Below, in pieces: positions 1 to 24,358 of a stretch of 64,000 nucleotides of DNA. Position 1 is the first letter of the stretch. The number at the start of each line of letters is the position of its first letter. Where the stretch lies: assembly GCA_018401695.1 (NCBI GenBank), contig JAGYKD010000003.1, positions 62,001-126,000 of the forward strand, written 5' to 3'. The notes under the pieces are model-generated. The model did no database searches, had not been told where the DNA came from, and was given only the letters and a program-made list of their open reading frames with translations. Source of the stretch: Flavobacteriales bacterium (lineage in GTDB: Bacteria > Bacteroidota > Bacteroidia > CAIKAF01). Both the position numbers and the translations under genes were made by a program.

Positions 1-1438
1 TCTACTTTTGGCATTCAAGTGGTAAGGGTCTTTTTGCCACAAAGCAACATTAATGAAGGAGTTGCCGAGTTTCAATCCACCAAAGGCCCCTCTACCCAAG
101 GGGGGAGTTTCAATCGGATTGGGTCGGTGGCTGAGGCTGATATTAGGAATTTGACTGGAAATAACATATACTGGTACCACAACGGAGGCATATCAGAACC
201 TTTGTACGTTACACCAACCAAGGTCGGGGTATTTCTCACCTACACATCCCCCAGTTGTGATTCCATAAATTTGCCTCCGGGCATGTACCCAAATTATGCC
301 AACGATGTTTCCACCTTAAAGCAACAGGCTCAGATTGATTTTCAGCAAAAGCAAATCGAGTACGGGAACCTCCTATATACCTATAAGCAAACGCTTGACC
401 AGGGCTTTACTTCCCACTTAATTCAACAAGTGCAGGGTGCTTGGTCGCAGGATGCTTGGGAAATGCGTGATTCCTTAATGGATATGGCGCCCTATTTGTC
501 CCAAACCGTGCTAAGCGAAGCCGCCCTAACGGGCGTCATGCCTCATGCCATGCTTTTGGAAGTTTGTTTGGCCAATGTGGATGCCACCATGGGGGCTTCT
601 TTTTAAATATGCTGCGCTACGATATCCCCAGTCCCATGCCGAGTATATGGTCTTGATAATTGAGGCCGCTTGGGGTACCGCAGGACCTTTAACTCAGATG
701 AAATCTTCCCTAGCCGAATTGGCTTTGGAACGAGACCAAACTTTGGCTTTGATTTTTCAAGCCATGCAATCCGACAGCTTGTACTATGCCGACAGCTTAT
801 TGAATTGGCGGATGCAAAGAGGCGAAGTTTCGGATTATTACGCTCAGGCCAATTATTTTGCAGATATGGGAGAGCGCGATACGGCTGAGGCTACCTATCA
901 GGCCATGGAGGATTTATTTTCTTTGGAAGGCACCTCGCTGGAGGAGTGGGAAGATTTTGGGCATTGGTTGCGGTTTAAATTGATGATGAGTGATTCCACT
1001 TGGCAAATAGACCGTTTGAGTGAGGCAAACCAAGACAGTTTGCTTTGGATGGCTGAGAACTTGAGCGGTAGCGCCTCAGGATTTGCCAGAAATATTTTAT
1101 GTTTCTTTTACGACACCTGTCCTCCCATGCCTGAACCACCTACTTCCAAACCTTCTGAAGAAAACCTGATTCCAAGGAGCTTAGCCGTTCCTGATTGCGG
1201 TTTATTTCCTAATCCTGCTTCAGCTAAGGTTATGTTCCATTATGGCCACGGGGTTGCAGGCCGTTTTGCTTTGTTCAGTTTGGAAGGTAGGCGGCTTTTA
1301 GACCTAGATTTGGAAGAGAAACCCTTCAGCTATACCATTTCTGTGGAGTCTTATCCTCCGGGGCTATACCTCTACCAAATTAAAAACAGCCAAGGCATTG
1401 TCCTATGCCAAGGAAAACTCATAGTCCAAAAACAATAG
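1..1438 (+). CDS. T9SS-sorted secreted protein, 5'-partial, two frameshifts
   Basis: The reading frame is already open at base 1, so the N-terminus lies outside the window. The protein appears in three pieces: frame 1 to about 596, frame 3 from about 600 to 640 (reading LNMLRYDIPSPMP), and frame 2 from about 641 to 1438 (continuing EYMVLIIEAAWG). Joining them needs two single-base losses about 45 bp apart. The last ~80 residues (from CGLFPNPASAKV to GLYLYQIKNSQG) match a T9SS type A C-terminal sorting domain, which in this phylum directs export through the Por secretion system and surface anchoring or release. The middle part is alpha-helical, acidic and not recognised. The gene is followed after 3 bp by another T9SS cargo gene. 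Whether the frameshifts are real or sequencing errors cannot be decided from the sequence. Confidence 0.75.
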
Positions 1439-1441
1439 AGC

Positions 1442-2977
1442 ATGGATAAAGATTTTTATAGAAGATTTAAAAACCTCTTTTTCAAACCGGTCGCTTTGAT
1501 TGTTATTGGGGGGAACATCTTTAGCCCCAATACCCATGCCCAAACCTTTTTTCGAGACGAGGGTTTTATGACCCACTTGGCTTGGGAACTGAACGACACT
1601 TATGATAGCATTTCCAGGATTGCCCAAATCAGTTTTCCTTGGGGCAACCAAATGATGCTGGTGGGAGGTATTGGACAGCAATACGTAACCTTTGGATCGG
1701 GTAGTGCCTATATGGGCTCTACCTCTTGGATGTTGTTTGATTTGGAGGGGAATTGGAATCCTGATTTTACATTGAATTCTGGAGGGGGGGGGGGAGTAAA
1801 CAGAAGGATATATGGTTCCTCCGGCGGTTTTATTTTTTCCTCGGGTTTTGGGTTTTCTCGTTTGGATTCAAGGGGGCAGTTGGACACCGCTTGGAGAAGT
1901 CATTTGCAAAGCCAGTTTGTTTGTGGTATGCCGAGGGCTTTTGTAGATCCTGCCGATTCCATGATTTACATTGGAACTTTCAATTGCAATGCCGCCGGCT
2001 CGGTGGTATTGCCTAACCAACACTATACCCGTCTTTATCCGGATGCCACCTGGGACAGCAGCTTTGTGGTGCCTATTGGAGGGATAGAGCCCTTAAGTCA
2101 TCTTTCCGCAGATTCCATGATTTATATTGGGGGGAAATTTTATTCCGTACATGGACGGTCTCAACCAGGCATTGCGCGGCTTCGCCGTTCGGATGGGAGC
2201 CTAGATACCAGCTTTCGTTCTATTTTCTCCAATTCTAACATAGAAGTACATCCTGAGTACTTAGATGAAAGGGGGCGGCTATGGGTAAGTGGCTTTCTGC
2301 AATTGATGGGCGATAGCATTGTGTATGGGATGTTTCGCCTGCTGCCGGACGGCCGCTTGGATTCCAGCTTCAACAATTTCAACAACGTACGGGTAAAAAC
2401 CCCGGGGATTTTGGGCTTAAATTCCGTTTCACTTATTGAGCGCATCCAGCCTAATTTGTTTTTAGTAGGGGGCGCAATTGACAGTTTTCAGAACAGCCTA
2501 AGGGGGGATTTGGTGGCGGTGGATTCCAACGGCTTTTTGCTGCCCGAGTATTTTCCGGAACCGGGAATAGATAGCTCTAGGAAATGGCATAATGGCGTGT
2601 GGGAATCCTCTCTATCCGCAGTAAATAGTATTGTGAAAGGTCCCGACGGCATGGTGTATGTGGGAGGGACATTTTTGCAGTACATGGGCGAGGACGTACC
2701 TCCGGTATTGCGGTTTAAATGGTCTCCGGCAGGATTGGAGGAAGAGGAACTCCCTTCCGATCCTTTGTATCCGAATCCTGTAAGCCGTGGAGGTGTTCTG
2801 TACCATAGGTCTATAGAATCTCCACTAAAGATTTATTCCTTGGATGGGCGTTTGCTTTTAGGTATAGCTCCTGAGGCGTTGAAATCGGGCTTCGAAGTGC
2901 CCATGGATTGGTCTCCGGGCTTGTATTTTTGGCAAAGCGGCAAGGAAAGCGGGAAATTGATGGTGAGGGATGAGTGA
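1442..2977 (+). CDS. Delta-60 repeat T9SS surface protein (copy 1)
   Basis: 511 residues. Residues 1-34 look like a signal peptide ending in THAQ. The body contains at least three delta-60-type repeats (LYPDATWDSSF, RRSDGSLDTSF, LLPDGRLDSSF), a family of beta-propeller-like repeats common in exported Bacteroidota proteins. The C-terminus (YPNPVSRGG ... KIYSLDGRLLLG ... GLYFWQSG ... KLMV) is a T9SS sorting domain, so the product should cross the outer membrane through the Por system. Codons around residue 115 contain a run of 11 G bases. It is the intact member of a tandem pair; the second copy begins 28 bp after its stop codon. Specific binding function is unknown. Confidence 0.85.
   Translation: MDKDFYRRFKNLFFKPVALIVIGGNIFSPNTHAQTFFRDEGFMTHLAWELNDTYDSISRIAQISFPWGNQMMLVGGIGQQYVTFGSGSAYMGSTSWMLFDLEGNWNPDFTLNSGGGGGVNRRIYGSSGGFIFSSGFGFSRLDSRGQLDTAWRSHLQSQFVCGMPRAFVDPADSMIYIGTFNCNAAGSVVLPNQHYTRLYPDATWDSSFVVPIGGIEPLSHLSADSMIYIGGKFYSVHGRSQPGIARLRRSDGSLDTSFRSIFSNSNIEVHPEYLDERGRLWVSGFLQLMGDSIVYGMFRLLPDGRLDSSFNNFNNVRVKTPGILGLNSVSLIERIQPNLFLVGGAIDSFQNSLRGDLVAVDSNGFLLPEYFPEPGIDSSRKWHNGVWESSLSAVNSIVKGPDGMVYVGGTFLQYMGEDVPPVLRFKWSPAGLEEEELPSDPLYPNPVSRGGVLYHRSIESPLKIYSLDGRLLLGIAPEALKSGFEVPMDWSPGLYFWQSGKESGKLMVRDE
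1784..1794 (+). repeat. G11 homopolymer inside coding region
   Basis: Eleven consecutive G bases encode the poly-glycine stretch NSGGGGG near residue 115 of the delta-60 protein. The corresponding place in the second copy has only G6 (3353-3358), and that copy is out of frame. Homopolymeric G tracts of this length are classic slippage sites; here one would switch a surface protein on or off. A sequencing-length error in the tract is also possible. Confidence 0.8.
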
Positions 2978-3004: not shown

Positions 3005-4541
3005 ATGGATAAAGATTTTTATAGAAGATTTAAAAACCTTGTTATCAAATCGGTCGCTTTGATTGTTATTGGGGGGAACATCTTTAGCCCCGATGCCCAT
3101 GCCCAAGCCTTTTTTCGAGACGAGGGCTTTATGACGCACTTGGCTTGGGAACTGAACGACACACGTGATAGCCTTTCCAGGATTGCCCAAATCAGTTTTC
3201 CTTGGGGCAACCAAATGATGCTGGTGGGAGGTATTGGACAGCAATACGTAACCTTTGGTAGTCCCGGTTTTCCCAATCCTGGTTCGACTTCTTGGATGCT
3301 GTTTGATTTGGAGGGGAATTGGAATCCGGATTTTACATTGAATTCTGGCCATGGGGGGAAGTCAACGGCTATACGGTTCCGGCGGCGGTTTTATTTACTC
3401 CTCCGGCGGCGGAGTTGCTCGTTTGGACTCTAAAGGGCAATTGGACACCGCATGGAAAAGCCACCTGCACAGTCAGTTTGCTTGTGGTATGCCGAGGGCT
3501 TTTGTAGATCCTGCCGATTCCATGATTTACATTGGGACTTTCAACTGCAATGCCGCCGGCTCGGTGGTATTGCCTAACCAACACTATACCCGTCTTTATC
3601 CGGACGCCACCTGGGACAGCAGCTTTGTGGTGCCTATTGGAGGGATAGAGCCCTTAAGTCATCTTTCCGCAGATTCCATGATTTATATTGGGGGGAAATT
3701 TTATTCCGTACATGGACGGTCTCAATCGGGCATCGCGCGGCTTCGCCGTTCGGATGGGAGCCTAGATACCAGCTTTCGTTCTATTTTCTCCAATTCTAAC
3801 ATAGAAGTACATCCTGAGTACTTAGATGAAAGGGGGCGGCTATGGGTAAGTGGCTTTCTACAATTGATGGGCGACAGCATCGTGTATGGGATGTTCCGCC
3901 TACTTCCGGACGGCCGCTTGGATTCCAGCTTCAACAATTTCAACAACGTTCGGGTGAAAACACCTGGGATATATGGATCCAATTGGATTTCTGACATAGA
4001 GCGAATACAAACAAATTTATATTTGGTAGGTGGGGTCATTGATAGTTTCCAGCACAGCCTTAGGGGGGATTTGGTGGCGGTGGATTCCAACGGTTTTTTG
4101 TTGCCCGAGTACTTTCCGGAGCCCGGAATAGATAGCTCTAGGGATTGGCATAATGGCGTATGGGTGTCTTCTACCTCCGGAGTGAATAGCATTGTGAAAG
4201 GTCCCGATGGCATGGTGTATGTGGGAGGGACATTTTTGCAGTATATGGGCGAGGACGTACCTCCGGTATTGCGGTTTAAATGGTCTCCGGCAGGATTGGA
4301 GGAAGAGGAACTCCCTTCCGATCCTTTGTATCCGAATCCCGTAAGCCGTGGAGGTGTTATGTACCATAGGTCTATAGAATCTCCACTAAAGATTTATTCC
4401 ATGGATGGGCGTTTGCTTTTAGGTATAGCTCCTGAGGCATTGAAATCGGGCTTCAAAGTGCCCATGGACTGGTCTCCGGGCTTGTATTTTTGGCAAAGCG
4501 GCAGGGAAAGCGGGAAATTGATGGTGAGGGATGAATGGTGA
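3005..4541 (+). pseudogene. Delta-60 repeat T9SS protein (copy 2), frameshifted
   Basis: This is a near copy of the gene at 1442. Frame 2 runs 3005-3433 with the signal peptide (ending DAHAQ) and N-terminal part; the rest continues in frame 3 from about 3351 to 4541 with the delta-60 repeats and T9SS sorting domain. The break falls at or next to the G6 run at 3353-3358, the equivalent of the G11 tract in copy 1. Long stretches (for example 3482-3960) are almost identical to copy 1, while 3964-4043 and the zone around 3255-3290 differ strongly. The C-terminus reads RDEW rather than RDE because a GAATGGT repeat has replaced the original stop context. It may be phase-off, a decaying duplicate, or an error. 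Confidence 0.8.
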
Positions 4542-4579
4542 ATGGTGAATGGTGAATGGTGAATGGTGAATGGTGAATG
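4533..4579. repeat. Heptamer microsatellite (GAATGGT)n
   Basis: Six perfect copies of GAATGGT run from 4533, with a degenerate seventh (GAATGAT) leading into the hairpin array. The tract overlaps the stop codon of the upstream T9SS gene copy, so length changes could alter its last residue. Confidence 0.85.
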
Positions 4580-4591
4580 ATGAGTGATGAG

Positions 4592-4915
4592 GTAAAGACG
4601 GGATGCCTCCCGTCTCTGGATGATGAGTGATGAGGTAAAGACGGGATGCCTCCCGTCTCTGGATGATGAGAGATGAGGTAAAGACGGGATGCCTCCGTCT
4701 CTCGATGATGAGTGATGAGGTAAAGACGGGATGTCTCCCGTCTCTCGATGATAAATGATGAGGTAAAGACGGGATGCCTCCCGTCTCTGGATGATGAGTG
4801 ATGAGGTAAAGACGGGATGCCTCCCGTCTCTGGATGATGAGAGATGTGGTAAAGACGGGATGCCTCCGTCTCTCCATGATGAATGATGAGGTAAAGACGG
4901 GATGTCTCCCTTTAC
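4592..4915. repeat. Hairpin repeat array 1 (8 units, ~43 bp)
   Basis: Units start at 4592, 4635, 4678, 4720, 4763, 4806, 4849 and 4891. Each begins GTAAAGACGGGA, loops with TGCC or TGTC, and closes with TCCCGTCTCT, followed by a ~19-bp GATGATGAG-rich linker. Units 3 and 7 both lack one C in the right arm, and units 1-4 resemble units 5-8, so a 171-bp block has itself been duplicated. It lies between convergent genes. The 152-residue minus-strand reading frame across it is repeat-derived and not called as a gene. Confidence 0.9.
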
Positions 4916-7187: not shown

Positions 7188-8130
7188 GGGCGAGGGATTG
7201 TTTGATTTGTTCGGGTAGACCATTCCGCGCAATATCCCAAGAAAGACGAATCATGTGTTGGATGGCGGTAGGGCTAGAGATTCCATGTCCGACTACTACC
7301 GGTCGGTTTACACCTAAAATAGGCGATCCTCCATAAATCTCATAATTTAATCGATCAAAGAAGGGATGGCTGTCTAAACCGGCTTCTTTGGCAAATTCAT
7401 AGAAAGTTTCGGCCAATTTCACCACTACATTACCGGTAAAACCGCTGGTAACTACTACATCGGCTTTGTCGGTAAACACATCACGGCCTTCGATATTACC
7501 GATAAAATTAATATCACGGCATTCGGCTAGAAGTTTATGTCCGGCTATGGTAATGGCGTTTCCTTTTTCGGGTTCTTCGCCAATGGAGAGAAGGCCGATT
7601 TTGGGGTTGGAAATTTTGAGGATTTCTCTTGCGTACACAGAGCCTAGGACAGCCAGGTCGACTAGGTTTTCGGCCTTGGTATCGGCAATGGCTCCGACGT
7701 CGAGCATTACTCCGTCTTTTCCACCATGAATGCGAGGAAGTGTGCTTAGCAAACAGGGTCTAAGATCGTCTCTAACCACACCGGTTTTGAGGACGGCACC
7801 AACCAGCATGGCTCCGGTGTTACCGGCGGAGCAAAAAGCGTCGATATTACCTTCGCTTAGGTAATTTAGCCCAACGGCGATGCTGGAATCTTGTTTTTCT
7901 TGGAGAGCACGAACGGGGCTGCTGCCCATAAGAATGACTTCTTCGCAAGGGACCAGGCTAAGATTAGCGGCTAATTCTTTGTGGTCATGCACAAAGGCAT
8001 TCAGGAGGTTTTCCTGGCCAAATAGGGTAATATGGAACTGTCCGGCCCAAGCATTGAGCGCGAGCTTGACCCCTTCCAAGGTAGCATCGGGGGCAAAATC
8101 CCCACCCATGATATCGATGCCGATGTTCAT
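7180..8130 (-). CDS. plsX: Phosphate acyltransferase PlsX
   Basis: 316 residues from the ATG at 8130 (MNIGIDIMGGDFAPDATLEG); an upstream ATG at 8145 would add five residues. PlsX makes acyl-phosphate from acyl-ACP, the donor used by PlsY in phospholipid synthesis, at the cytoplasmic face of the membrane. Recognised by the N-terminal IDIMGGD motif, FCSAGNTGAML, MLDVGAIAD and the C-terminal GVNRPVVVGHG region. It sits between rpmF and fabH on the same strand and its stop overlaps the fabH start. Confidence 0.96.
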   Translation of the reverse strand: MNIGIDIMGGDFAPDATLEGVKLALNAWAGQFHITLFGQENLLNAFVHDHKELAANLSLVPCEEVILMGSSPVRALQEKQDSSIAVGLNYLSEGNIDAFCSAGNTGAMLVGAVLKTGVVRDDLRPCLLSTLPRIHGGKDGVMLDVGAIADTKAENLVDLAVLGSVYAREILKISNPKIGLLSIGEEPEKGNAITIAGHKLLAECRDINFIGNIEGRDVFTDKADVVVTSGFTGNVVVKLAETFYEFAKEAGLDSHPFFDRLNYEIYGGSPILGVNRPVVVGHGISSPTAIQHMIRLSWDIARNGLPEQIKQSLAHA

Positions 8131-8170
8131 GCTTTGCGTATGCAAACGAAAATCCCTGGGGATTTTCCGG

Positions 8171-8362
8171 TTATTCTGCCGTGGTGGCTTCTACCACCAA
8201 TTTCCCTTTATAATAGAGATTGCCGTCTACCATGTAGGCCCGGTGACGGCGGTGCACGGTACCGGTGTTTGCGCAAGTAGAAAGGGTAGGCAAAGAAGCC
8301 TTGTAATGTGTACGGCGCTTATCGCGACGTGTTTTCGAGATTTTTCGTTTAGGATGTGCCAT
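8171..8362 (-). CDS. rpmF: 50S ribosomal protein L32
   Basis: 63 residues beginning [20 protein letters not shown], the standard L32 start, highly basic, part of the large ribosomal subunit. The first Cys of the usual zinc motif is visible (LSTCANTG), but the downstream CxxC pair is absent, as in zinc-independent L32 forms. It lies 5 bp after the DUF177 gene and 40 bp before plsX on the minus strand, the common DUF177-rpmF-plsX-fabH order. Confidence 0.96.
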
Positions 8363-8988: not shown

Positions 8989-10086
8989 TTAATCATCGCG
9001 TTCCCGTTCTCTGCGTTTGGGGATTTTAAGTGGGTTGGCGGTAATTTCTTTGTACAAGGTTCTGCATTTTTGGATGTCTAAGGCATGATATACTGCTTGC
9101 ATAAAGGAAGTTGGGTTTGCCTTTCCTGTGCCTGCCAAATCAAATGCGGGACCATGATCAGGGCTGACCCGAACAATGGGTAAACCGGCGGTGAAATTGA
9201 CCCCTTCAAAGCCGGTGATGCTTTTAAACCCGGTGAGCCCTTGGTCATGATACATGGCCAATACCCCGTCAAAATTTTGGTAGTTCCCCGAACCAAAAAA
9301 TCCGTCGGCAGGGAAAGGGCCTGCTACAAGTAGGTTGTTTTGGCTTCTAAGTTCTTGAAGGGTTGGCAAAATCACCTCTTGCTCTTGGTTTCCAAAGCGC
9401 CCTTGATCGCCGGCGTGCGGATTTAAGGCCAACACAGCTATTTTAGGTTTGGTAATGGCGAAGTCTTGAATTAAGGTTTGGTTAAACCTTAGAATATGAT
9501 CTTTGAGAAGTGTGGGACTAATGGCCTTGGGTACATCTTCCAAGGGTATATGGCCAGTAAGTAAGGCCACCCTTAAACTCTCGTGGCACATAATCATTTG
9601 TGCTTTGCCTGAGGCCTTGTGTTCTAAATATTCGGTGTGTCCCGGAAAGTTCATTCCGGCTTCCACCATAAAGGACTTGTCTATTGGAGCTGTAACCAGT
9701 ATATCGGCTTTACCATTCAAAACAGCCTCTGTAGCGGCTTCTAAAGAGGCGAAAGCGGCTTGTGCTCCCTCCAAGGTTCGTTCTCCGGGAGTTGCCAACA
9801 AATTAGGCATATGCTCCTGGATAAGGTTTAATTTCCCCTCTTGCGCTTCGTCTATCGATTTAATTTGATGAAAAGAAAAGGCCTCCAGCTGGAGATTTTT
9901 CTTGTAGAAGGCCATGACTTTTCCACTAGCAAATACCACGGGGATGCACATGGAAAACATACCCGGGGTTGCGAAACACTGCCAAATAATTTCAGGCCCC
10001 ACGCCATTGATGTCACCTGCAGAAATGGCAATTATGGGTTTTTCGGTAGCTTCCGGATAGGTGATTTTGGGATTCGGTTTAATCAT
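8989..10086 (-). CDS. pdxA: 4-hydroxythreonine-4-phosphate dehydrogenase
   Basis: 365 residues. PdxA oxidises 4-phosphohydroxy-L-threonine in the DXP-dependent pyridoxal phosphate pathway, a cytoplasmic dimer with a divalent metal. Conserved pieces are SAGDINGVGPEI at the N-terminus, TAPIDKSFM, FPGHTEYLEH, LNPHAGDQGRFG and MYHDQGLTGFK; the histidines in the latter motifs ligate the metal. The C-terminal tail ends in a basic stretch (KRRERERDD). Its ATG overlaps the stop of the leucyl aminopeptidase gene by 8 bp, so the two are probably co-transcribed. Confidence 0.96.
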   Translation of the reverse strand: MIKPNPKITYPEATEKPIIAISAGDINGVGPEIIWQCFATPGMFSMCIPVVFASGKVMAFYKKNLQLEAFSFHQIKSIDEAQEGKLNLIQEHMPNLLATPGERTLEGAQAAFASLEAATEAVLNGKADILVTAPIDKSFMVEAGMNFPGHTEYLEHKASGKAQMIMCHESLRVALLTGHIPLEDVPKAISPTLLKDHILRFNQTLIQDFAITKPKIAVLALNPHAGDQGRFGNQEQEVILPTLQELRSQNNLLVAGPFPADGFFGSGNYQNFDGVLAMYHDQGLTGFKSITGFEGVNFTAGLPIVRVSPDHGPAFDLAGTGKANPTSFMQAVYHALDIQKCRTLYKEITANPLKIPKRRERERDD

Positions 10087-11453
10087 GTGCTTTCCATTGG
10101 GAAATAAACTGGGCTAAAAGTCTAACACCGGCACCTGTAGCTCCCGATGTCCAATACGCTTTGGGGGCATTTCTAAAAGAATTGGCCAAATCCAAGTGAA
10201 TCCAGGGGTAGTCGGTAAAGTGCTTTAAGAAAATTCCGGCAGTAATGCATCCTGCATAGGGCCCACCAATGTTTTTAAGATCTGCCACTTGAGATTTAAG
10301 TGCATCTTCATAGGCGGGCAGCATGGGAAACTCTACCACCACTTCACCCATGTTTTCACCGGCACGCTTTAATTGCTCCATAGAGGTTTTGGCTTGGTGT
10401 TGCATGCCGGCCATTGCCTCAAAGCCCAAAGTTCCAACGGCAGAACCGGTAAGTGTGGCTTGGTCAATGACCAAAGCCGGGTTATATTTTTGCGTACAAG
10501 AGGGCGTCTGCCAAAACCAATCGGCCTTCTGCGTCGGTGTTTAGTACTTCTACCGTTGTTCCGTTGTTGTAGCGAATCACATCGCCGGGAACCAAAGAAT
10601 CCGGGGCCAATCGATTGTCGGTAAAGGGAATGAGGCCTACAAGATGTACCTGTTGTTTGGTTTTAGCCGCCCAAACCATAGTGGCAACCACATTGGCGCC
10701 ACCACACATATCGGCTTTCATTTCTTCCATTCCCTTAGGGGTCTTGAGGCTGCTACCCCCCGTATCGAATAAAATCCCTTTACCTACCAACACCAATGGT
10801 TTTTGATTTAGTGCTTGGCTGCCACGGTATTCTATTACTGCAAAAAGGGGGGGCGTTGCGCTTCCTTTATTTACGGACAAGAGGCCTTGCATGTTCAAGG
10901 ACTTTAATGCTGCCGGGCCTAAGCCTTCGTAGTGCAAATCCCATTCGGCCGCCAGTTGTTCCAAGCGCGCATGCACTTCTTTGGCGTGCAGGGTGTTGTA
11001 TGGGTCGTTTCCCCAGTCTCGGGCAAGCCAAACGCTTTGTACCAGAGCCTCTAATTCTTGCAGGCCGGATATTGGTTCGCCTTGGACGTCAATAAAGAGT
11101 TGATCTTGGCGTAAATAGCAATAATTTTTAAGACAAAGGCCTTCTAAGGCAGGCAGAATATGTGTGGCTTGGTTGTGCCGAACCATTACACCCTTTAGGT
11201 TTTTTTTTAACTCAGGAGCTTCGCTTCTAATGGCCTCAGGCTCCTTGGGCAATCGCCAAGCAAACCAAGTTTGCTTTCCTTTTTGAACCGACCAAAGGCC
11301 GGGCTCCTCTTTGGGTAAGGCGGTCAACCATTCATTAACCCAAGCATCTTCAACCGGCAACCACGGCTTGTTTTCGTCGCAAATACATATGTTTTGCCCG
11401 TAAGTCTCCTTGGGCTCTTGAATATTTTGAAGGTGTATGGAAGGTTTTTGCAT
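10079..11453 (-). CDS. Leucyl aminopeptidase (M17), one frameshift
   Basis: The gene is split into 10482-11453 and 10079-10474. Adding one A to the A5 run (T5 at 10487-10491 on the plus strand) restores ALLYAKKYNPALVIDQATLTGSAVG, so this is a single-base loss in a homopolymer. The start chosen is the ATG at 11453 (MQKPSIHLQN), 5 nt after a promoter box. M17 enzymes are di-metal cytoplasmic exopeptidases; the metal-binding Lys and Asp (VGKGILFDTGG), the MKADMCGGA segment and the signature NTDAEGRLVLAD are all present. It is followed directly by pdxA. Sequencing error is the simplest explanation for the break. Confidence 0.88.
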
Positions 11454-11458
11454 AGCAG

Positions 11459-11466
11459 CAAAGGTA
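11459..11466 (-). promoter_or_regulatory. -7 box TACCTTTG, 5 nt before aminopeptidase start
   Basis: The minus strand reads TACCTTTG and the start codon ATG at 11453 follows after five bases. If transcription starts at the usual distance, the mRNA has almost no leader. Confidence 0.55.
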
Positions 11467-11772
11467 AGAAAAGGCACTTAGCGAAGCGGCAATTCTTAAT
11501 TAACCCATGAAGGTCTTTGCCGAAAGGCTTTTCCGGTGCACAAACGCCAACCTGACCTTTTGGCGGTATCAAAGGTAAGCTGATCAGTCTTTCGGTGGCT
11601 TAGGAAGGATACAGAGGCTGCAGTATCAAGGTTTACCTAACAAAAGGTCGATTTTCTTTGAAAAAGCAGCACGCATGAAGGCATTCTTTTTGGTTTTGGT
11701 AGTATTTGGGGAGGTATTGCAGCCAAATGCATGATGAAACTTACGTACTATTGCCGTCCGCATAGGATATGT

Positions 11773-11780
11773 TACCTTTG
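11773..11780 (+). promoter_or_regulatory. -7 box TACCTTTG for cdd
   Basis: TACCTTTG lies 13 nt before the ATG at 11794, with TTG about 17-20 nt further upstream (ATTGCCG near 11753), fitting the TTG / TAnnTTTG promoter of Bacteroidota. Confidence 0.6.
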
Positions 11781-11793
11781 CATCCCTTTTTTA

Positions 11794-12293
11794 ATGAGGG
11801 TTCTTATGAAGAAATTATCCTTAACACTAAACCTTTGGCAACAGGAGGCGAGCTCTTTGCCCGACGATGAAAAAGAGTTGTTGGAAAAAGCCCGCGCGCA
11901 AGCCTCAACAGCATATGCTCCCTACAGCGCTTTTGGTGTAGGTGCAGCCTTGCTTTTGGCCAATGGTGAAATCGTCGCTGCATCCAATCAAGAAAACAGT
12001 GCATTCCCTTCCGGCATGTGTGCCGAGCGGGTAGCACTTGCAATACGCCGGTGCCCGATACCCCGGCGTTCCTGTCAAAGAATTGGTTATTGCTGTAAAA
12101 TCGGAGCGTAAAACCGCCGATGCCGTTTACGCCCCTTGCGGTGGTTGCCGATCAAGTGATGTCTGAAACAGAATACAGGCAAAACCAAGAGCCTTTGGAA
12201 ATAATTTTTGAAGGTCCGGGCGAAAAGGTCACCCGTTGCACCGGAATTTCAGAACTTATGCCCTTTACTTTCAAGCTCAACAACAAAAGCTGA
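11794..12293 (+). CDS. cdd: Cytidine deaminase, two frameshifts
   Basis: Frame 1 from 11794 (or 11806) reads the deaminase core: YAPYSAFGVGAALL, SAFPSGMCAERVAL. At 12040 one extra G shifts to frame 2 (QYAGARYPGVPVKELVIAVKS ... YAPCGGCR), and at 12152 one extra T shifts to frame 3 (QVMSETEYRQNQEP ... ELMPFTFKLNNKS), ending at TGA 12291-12293. The zinc ligands of the cytidine deaminase fold (Cys in MCAER, PCGGC) are all present if repaired. The enzyme hydrolyses cytidine and deoxycytidine to uridine forms. The cdd-pdhA-pdhC order is familiar from flavobacteria. Two +1 errors in a short core gene suggest poor sequence quality here, though inactivation cannot be ruled out. Confidence 0.85.
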
Positions 12294-12335
12294 GGCATTA
12301 TGGGCTTATGCCTTACGCTTCCACGCTTATTTATC

Positions 12336-12343
12336 TAACTTTG
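12336..12343 (+). promoter_or_regulatory. -7 box TAACTTTG for pdhA
   Basis: TAACTTTG lies 22 nt upstream of the pdhA ATG at 12366, in the 72-bp gap after cdd. Confidence 0.5.
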
Positions 12344-12365
12344 TACCCTCAGATAGATTTGCATT

Positions 12366-22849: not shown

Positions 22850-22970
22850 ACATCGAAAGTACCTATTTCTTACCTTTTGCTGACAGAAACAACGGCTTCA
22901 CAAGCTCCAAGCCATTAGAAAGGAACTTGGTTAAAATGTGTATTTTCGTGCCAGCTAAAAAAATGAAGGT

Positions 22971-24358
22971 ATGCAATTTGATGTACTTGTTATAGGAAGT
23001 GGTCCCGGAGGTTATGTGGCAGCCATTAGGGCAGCCCAATTAGGACTTAAAACCGCGGTTGTTGAGCGCGAAAGCCTAGGAGGTATTTGCCTCAACTGGG
23101 GTTGTATACCAACCAAAGCGCTATTAAAAAGTGCTCAGGTATACGATTATATTAAGCATGCCGGCGATTATGGAATCAAAGTAAAAGAGGCGGAAGTTGC
23201 CTTCGACGACATGATTAAGCGCTCACGCGAAGTGGCGGGAGGCATGAGTAAAGGGGTACAATTCCTCATGCGCAAAAACAAGATTGAGGTTCTTATGGGG
23301 CAAGGAAAGGTAGCCGGACCCAATAAAGTGGAGGTTACCGGTGCGGACAATAAGCAGACCGTTTACCAGGCCCAGCATATTATTTTAGCTACAGGCGCCC
23401 GTTCCAGAACCCTTCCCAACATTCCTCAAGACGGTAAAAAATCATTGGTTATCGGGAAGCCATGACCCTAACCGAGCAACCCAAACGCATGGTGGTTGTA
23501 GGAAGTGGGGCTATTGGTTCTGAGTTTTCATATTTCTATAACGCTATTGGAACTGAGGTTACTCTAGTTGAATATTTGCCGCGCATTTTGCCCGCCGAAG
23601 ACGAAGAAAGCTCCAAAACCATGGAGAAGATTTTTAAAAAACAAGGCATTGATGTGCGCACAGGCACTACGGTAGAAAAGGCAGAAATTAAAGGCAAGGA
23701 GGTGGAAGTCCACCTAGACAAAGGAGGTAAGAAAGAAGTAATCAAAGCCGATGTGGTATTGTCTGCTGTTGGCGTAGTCGCCAATATCGAAGATTTAGGT
23801 TTGGAGCAATTGGGCATTAAAACCGAGCAGGGCAAAGTGCCGGTAGATGCTTTTTACCAAACCAATATTCCCGGGGTTTATGCCATTGGAGATATGATTC
23901 CGGGCCCCGCATTAGCCCACTTAGCCTCGCATGAAGCCATTGTTTGTGTCGAAAAAATTGCCGGCAAAAATCCGCAAGCTATAGATTACAACAACATTCC
24001 GGGTTGTACCTATACCTATCCTGAGGTTGCCTCCGTTGGATATACCGAGCAGTCTGCTAAAGAAGCAGGCTATACCATTAAGGTGGGTAAGTTTCCTTTT
24101 AGTGCTTCGGGTAAAGCAAGTGCTGCAGGTGCTAAAGATGGTTTCGTAAAATTGATTTTTGACGAAAAATATGGAGAGCTGCTGGGAGCGCACATGGTAG
24201 GAGCTAATGTAACCGAGATGATTGCCGAGGTGGTAGCGGCGCGGAAACTAGAAACTACCGGACACGAAATCATTACAACAGTTCACCCGCATCCCACCAT
24301 GTCCGAAGCTGTTATGGAAGCTGCAGCGGCTGCGTATGGTGAGGTAATTCACCTTTGA
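22971..24358 (+). CDS. lpd: Dihydrolipoamide dehydrogenase, one frameshift
   Basis: Two pieces, 22971-23465 and 23462-24358, join if the A6 run at 23436-23441 is A7, giving DGKKIIGYREAMTLTEQ. E3 of 2-oxoacid dehydrogenase complexes: FAD-binding GSGPGGYVAAIRAAQLG at the N-terminus, redox-active disulfide GGICLNWGCIPTK, NAD-binding VVVGSGAIGSEFSYF, FAD-binding YAIGDMIPGPALAH, and the C-terminal active-site VHPHPTMSEAV. It would serve the PDH complex encoded at 12-15 kb. Next to asnB-like gene but unrelated to it. The single-base loss in a homopolymer suggests error. Confidence 0.92.

Follow-up and report, generated by a model that had tools for sequence, protein, structure and literature searches.

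On balance, and with little more than even confidence, the run of 11 guanines (G11) in gene a1 is best explained as a slippage-prone stretch in a member of a mosaic family of predicted T9SS-exported propellers with several copies; the tract encodes a glycine motif that is conserved, and the broken copies of the family would have arisen through indels in a G-rich segment and not as off phases of a switch. The tract lies in the window analysed here, a stretch of 64,000 nucleotides (C13:62001-126000) from a genome of 2.99 Mb in 19 contigs (table 1). As judged from sequence, a slippage-prone tract in a predicted surface gene is plausible, and a role as a phase-variation on/off switch is possible. 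Slips would occur at some rate and leave a minority of cells without surface display; irrespective of whether it arose as a switch, the site would be at least mutation-prone. The other three close copies in this genome (a2, b1 and b2) are broken, but most likely not in a slipped off phase; these copies would carry indels in the same G-rich hypervariable segment, arising via assembly error or via decay and recombination of redundant copies. The confidences placed in the explanations weighed below overlap and do not sum to one: a1 may be subject to slippage even if a2 contains an assembly error.

Table 1. Coordinates of the features discussed (positions in the window unless preceded by the contig, C13).
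Feature	Position	Strand	Description
~1900-aa gene adjoining a1 on its 5' side, C-terminal part	1..1438	+	itself broken near 545-606
a1	1442..2977	+	intact; 511-aa predicted secreted DUF5122 propeller with weak T9SS type A sorting tail
Variable G-rich segment of a1	1774..1819	+	46 nt
G11 tract	1784..1794	+	in frame; codes most of a Gly5 motif (GGA GGG GGG GGG GGA)
a2 upstream ORF	3005..3433	+	142 aa; reaches past the frame change
Variable G-rich segment of a2	3340..3380	+	41 nt; frame change here; contains G6 3353-3358
a2 downstream ORF	3351..4541	+	+1 frame; 396 aa; 92% identical to a1
Hairpin repeat array	4541..4915	+	~43-bp repeats, core GACGGGATGCCTCCCGTC; right bound of locus a
b1	C13:478521-480027		close copy
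b2	C13:480058-482161		close copy

The a1 gene and its poly-G tract

The product of a1 matches Pfam DUF5122 above the cut-off, and its T9SS label comes from a TIGR04183 match of 21.2 bits, just under the curated cut-off of 23. The structure model is of low confidence (mean pLDDT 56.5), with Foldseek matches to generic propellers at low TM-scores, and no relatives were found in the viral contigs searched. The gene of approximately 1900 codons upstream of a1 has an intact homologue in the sister MAG; here, its frame changes in a TTT TAA A context and the downstream frame is +1, like that of the broken propeller copies.

The initial annotation had placed G11 in the first quarter of an intact gene, and this is indeed the case: the position of the tract is exact, it starts at nucleotide 343 of the ORF (codon 115, 22% into the ORF) and the ORF has no internal stop. 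As a matter of arithmetic, a slip of one base in either direction would truncate the protein. With 11 guanines the product has 511 amino acids, and with 8 or 14 it would have 510 or 512; a tract of 10 would give 118 amino acids and one of 12 would give 191, both products lacking the sorting tail and the greater part of the propeller.

One criterion for a poly-G contingency tract is a G/C run of 7-8 or more within an ORF (the cut-off of at least 7 being that of PMC6321876), and G11 of a1 is such a run. In Campylobacter, tracts of at least 8 Gs switch (PMC6321876), so that the length of G11 is one known to be mutable elsewhere. Pattern searches, from which the genome-wide counts of G/C runs derive, returned only 12 runs of at least 9 in this genome. 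Two of these 12 fall within clear long ORFs, and G11 of a1 is the sole coding run of 11. A coding G9 run is found at C1:1079282 (L020 1501-1509), in a predicted membrane protein. When the genes of this window were subjected to synonymous-codon shuffling, a run of at least 11 appeared in 10% of the trials, because the a1 protein has five glycines at the site; therefore, G11 may be neutral.

Recurrence of G11 in homologues

The sister genome (MAG JAUHWY01, G002) contains two close copies, s1 and s2, the latter running off the contig end. In s1, an in-frame G11 is found at the same glycine motif, with the neighbouring codons arranged differently from those of a1, and a distant paralogue in the same MAG (approx. 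31% identity) has an in-frame G11 (C6:27289-27299) at the same motif (GYGGGG), in an ORF that runs off the contig end. Among the G/C runs of at least 9 in the two genomes, coding runs that reach 11 are limited to these three (a1, s1 and the C6 paralogue). No variation in tract length was seen with one genome per species, all three long tracts being exactly 11 and in frame, and the shorter runs in other copies accompany other changes of the segment. In other distant paralogues the GGGG motif is retained but written in mixed glycine codons, which indicates that the protein does not force a long G run. The chance of G11 in two independent lineages, calculated with assumed per-lineage chances of 0.05 and 0.01, is approximately 0.04 if the GGG usage of the family is applied and 0.002 if that of the window, which is lower, is taken instead. 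On these grounds, the recurrence of G11 at the glycine motif may be more than a by-product of glycine coding, but is suggestive only. A coding G10 run is also present in the sister MAG, at C53:181789-181798 (L152 1490-1499), in a 933-aa propeller-like protein.

The broken copies and the variable segment

Close copies in this genome number four, and not the two of the initial annotation: a1 and a2 lie in the window, b1 and b2 elsewhere on its contig. All but a1 are broken, every break falling between residues 117 and approximately 120. In a2, the two ORFs overlap and the frame changes at the G6 run. In b2, a gap of 100 Ns (C13 481476-481575), the flanks of which repeat 470 bp identically, looks like an assembly join that has duplicated sequence.

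The G-rich segment, taken from GAATTC to GGTTCC, measures 46 nt in all three read-through copies (a1, s1 and s2), and 41, 38 and 44 nt in a2, b1 and b2, respectively. Since the segments differ throughout their sequence, the length of the tract is not the sole difference between copies. The G runs of the broken copies are short (6, 8 and 5), and the G6 of a2 is no longer than other G6 runs of these genes that stay in frame. The a2 copy had been described as broken at the G tract that matches G11, and its frame does change at G6, but the segment as a whole differs from that of a1 (41 versus 46 nt) and is not merely one with a shorter run. When the downstream frame of b2 is read backward, a TAA is met after the tract and before the conserved GGTTCC, and b2 would stay closed at any tract length; the downstream frames of a2 and b1 contain no such stop. 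A change of tract length cannot, therefore, account for every break, b2 being the exception.

Three breaks within one segment of 46 nt have a probability of approximately 0.004 under random placement, which argues for some special instability at this site that random assembly error does not explain. The downstream halves of a2, b1 and b2 show dN/dS values of 0.11-0.21 and contain no further frame breaks, so that long-decayed pseudogenes are not supported; breaks of recent date are possible. An internal start at 3351 in a2 is unlikely, as the product would have no signal peptide. Programmed frameshifting was also considered, the +1 downstream frame being common to the three broken copies and the upstream gene, and was set aside: three copies would agree by chance in 1/4 of cases, and a slippery element common to them was not seen.

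Frameshifts elsewhere in the assembly

Comparison with the sister MAG over approximately 45 kb of orthologous coding DNA revealed that housekeeping genes are also frameshifted in this genome, namely those for dihydrolipoyl dehydrogenase (window 22959-24355, at ~23440), cytidine deaminase (11662-12290, at 12038 and 12151) and leucyl aminopeptidase (10079-11477, at ~10483). The indel rate of this assembly is, thus, 4 per ~45 kb, while the sister MAG has no such housekeeping breaks across the sequence compared. These frameshifts are likely consensus indels, and for this reason the ‘off’ state of a2 may itself be an assembly error. At the measured rate, a copy of 1.5 kb would suffer a spurious break with a chance of approximately 13%, so random errors alone fail to explain three breaks at one site. 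Elsewhere, a near-duplicate of the C1 paralogue, located on C14 (L014 2249-4075), has its C-terminal sorting region out of frame, likely through another indel or decay.

It may well be, though we would place the chance somewhat below even, that the cell has a2, b1 and b2 in intact form and that their breaks stem from consensus indels in a G-rich, multi-copy segment, G11 of a1 being then one of several intact glycine tracts. The three frameshifted housekeeping genes and the clean sister MAG speak for it, as do the broken upstream gene, the 100-N join with its duplicated flanks in b2, the fact that none of the three broken segments reaches 46 nt, the open frames of the family members with this segment in the sister MAG, and the known weakness of long-read consensus at long homopolymers (PMC9262707). 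However, the measured rate predicts only some 13% of copies broken, the difference in b2 includes a non-homopolymer change, and G11 of a1 was called at the same length as the G11 of the sister species.

The same observations bear on the reading in which a1 and its paralogues carry G tracts that evolved as reversible contingency sites, the broken copies being off phases. Breaks in three of four copies at one segment, an in-frame G11 in three family members, constraint on the downstream halves of the broken copies and truncation of a1 by one-base slips would all agree with it, but the short runs and segment changes of the broken copies, a b2 that no tract length opens and the frameshifts elsewhere in the assembly make it unlikely. 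As for the initial proposal of phase variation, the length of G11, the truncating slips and the presence of G11 in two sister homologues support it, while a2 as its off phase is not supported. In particular, one copy on and one off had been taken as the pattern of slipped-strand variation, an argument weakened by the changed segment of a2, the closed frame of b2 and the broken housekeeping genes.

A mosaic family between hairpin-repeat arrays

The six close copies share a near-identical backbone on which variable blocks are combined differently in each (PHI-like p = 0.0005), and polymorphic sites match in long runs between non-allelic copies, also across species. To the left of the segment, b2 is identical to a2 (136/136) and, to the right, it matches s2 of the sister species at 140 of 142 positions; being a2-like on one side and s2-like on the other, b2 has a recombination junction at the G-rich segment. 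Mosaic copies, one feature of recombination-based antigenic variation with silent cassettes, are present in this family.

These features suggest a further, rather improbable, explanation, whereby only a1 would be expressed, the broken copies would be real and serve as gene-conversion donors or be leftovers, and the G-rich segment would be a junction often left out of frame. The strong mosaicism, the long runs of matching sites across copies and species and the composite b2 all fit. Nevertheless, classical silent cassettes differ from the broken copies, in which a start codon and signal peptide are still present, signs of continuing conversion inside a strain were not seen with one assembly per species, and the caveat of assembly error applies here too.

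Loci a, b and s1 each lie between two ~43-bp repeat arrays; for a, the right one is that of table 1 and a similar one is found beyond the window, to the left of the ~1900-aa upstream gene. The syntenic sites in the sister MAG lack loci a and b, s1 is missing at its syntenic site in this genome, and the empty sites hold the repeats without the genes, the loci being present or absent as units. Arrays of ~43-bp repeats with this core lie at L011 (~8029-8190 and 12210-12350) and L012 (2018-2620 and 11598-11870), and dozens of similar hairpin-repeat places occur across the two sister genomes. Separately, a 143-bp element (L011 14475-14617), probably a small mobile element, is inserted in a gene here, and the sister genome has copies 88-97% identical to it at other places. 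Diversity at two levels in this uncultured Bacteroidota genus, in which T9SS-type propeller cassettes between hairpin arrays would be gained and lost between sister species and block-shuffled by gene conversion, with on/off slippage added at a conserved poly-G site, is a speculative proposal to which we attach a low probability.

Relation to known systems and significance

The poly-G contingency genes of Campylobacter (PhasomeIt survey, PMC6321876) resemble a1 in having at least 8 Gs in an ORF that is surface-related (by prediction in a1) and that a one-base change truncates. They differ from it in phylum, in that the tract here codes a conserved glycine motif, in that there is one long tract per genome in this family, plus few others, and in that isolate-to-isolate variation has no counterpart here, with one genome per species. 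Accidental tracts, such as those of meningococcal siaD and the mycobacterial homopolymers (PMC11868660), are similar as runs due to codon usage, with possible loss of expression and with reversibility not in evidence, but the run described here recurs at the same motif in three homologues, beyond a single accident. Porphyromonas gingivalis, also a T9SS-bearing member of the Bacteroidota, forms mosaic surface-protein variants by allelic exchange and domain rearrangement (PMC5266723), whereas the mosaic here involves tandem and dispersed DUF5122 propeller genes between hairpin-repeat arrays. A phase-variable locus is expected to show (genetic or epigenetic) variation that is confined to one locus, reversible and of high rate without selection (PMC11868660); a1 has a suitable tract, and no variation is seen with one genome per species. 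A search of the literature returned no poly-G phase variation in T9SS bacteria.

The main use of these results for now is one of caution: in a draft assembly, a duplicated gene with one frame on and the other off is no evidence for phase variation, and housekeeping genes of the same assembly should be checked for frameshifts before phase variation is concluded from broken duplicate copies. If slippage at G11 proves true, the tract would represent a poly-G contingency site, and this in a phylum whose phase variation is listed in a review as due to DNA inversion; it would, moreover, belong to a mosaic family the members of which are gained or missing from one sister species to the other.
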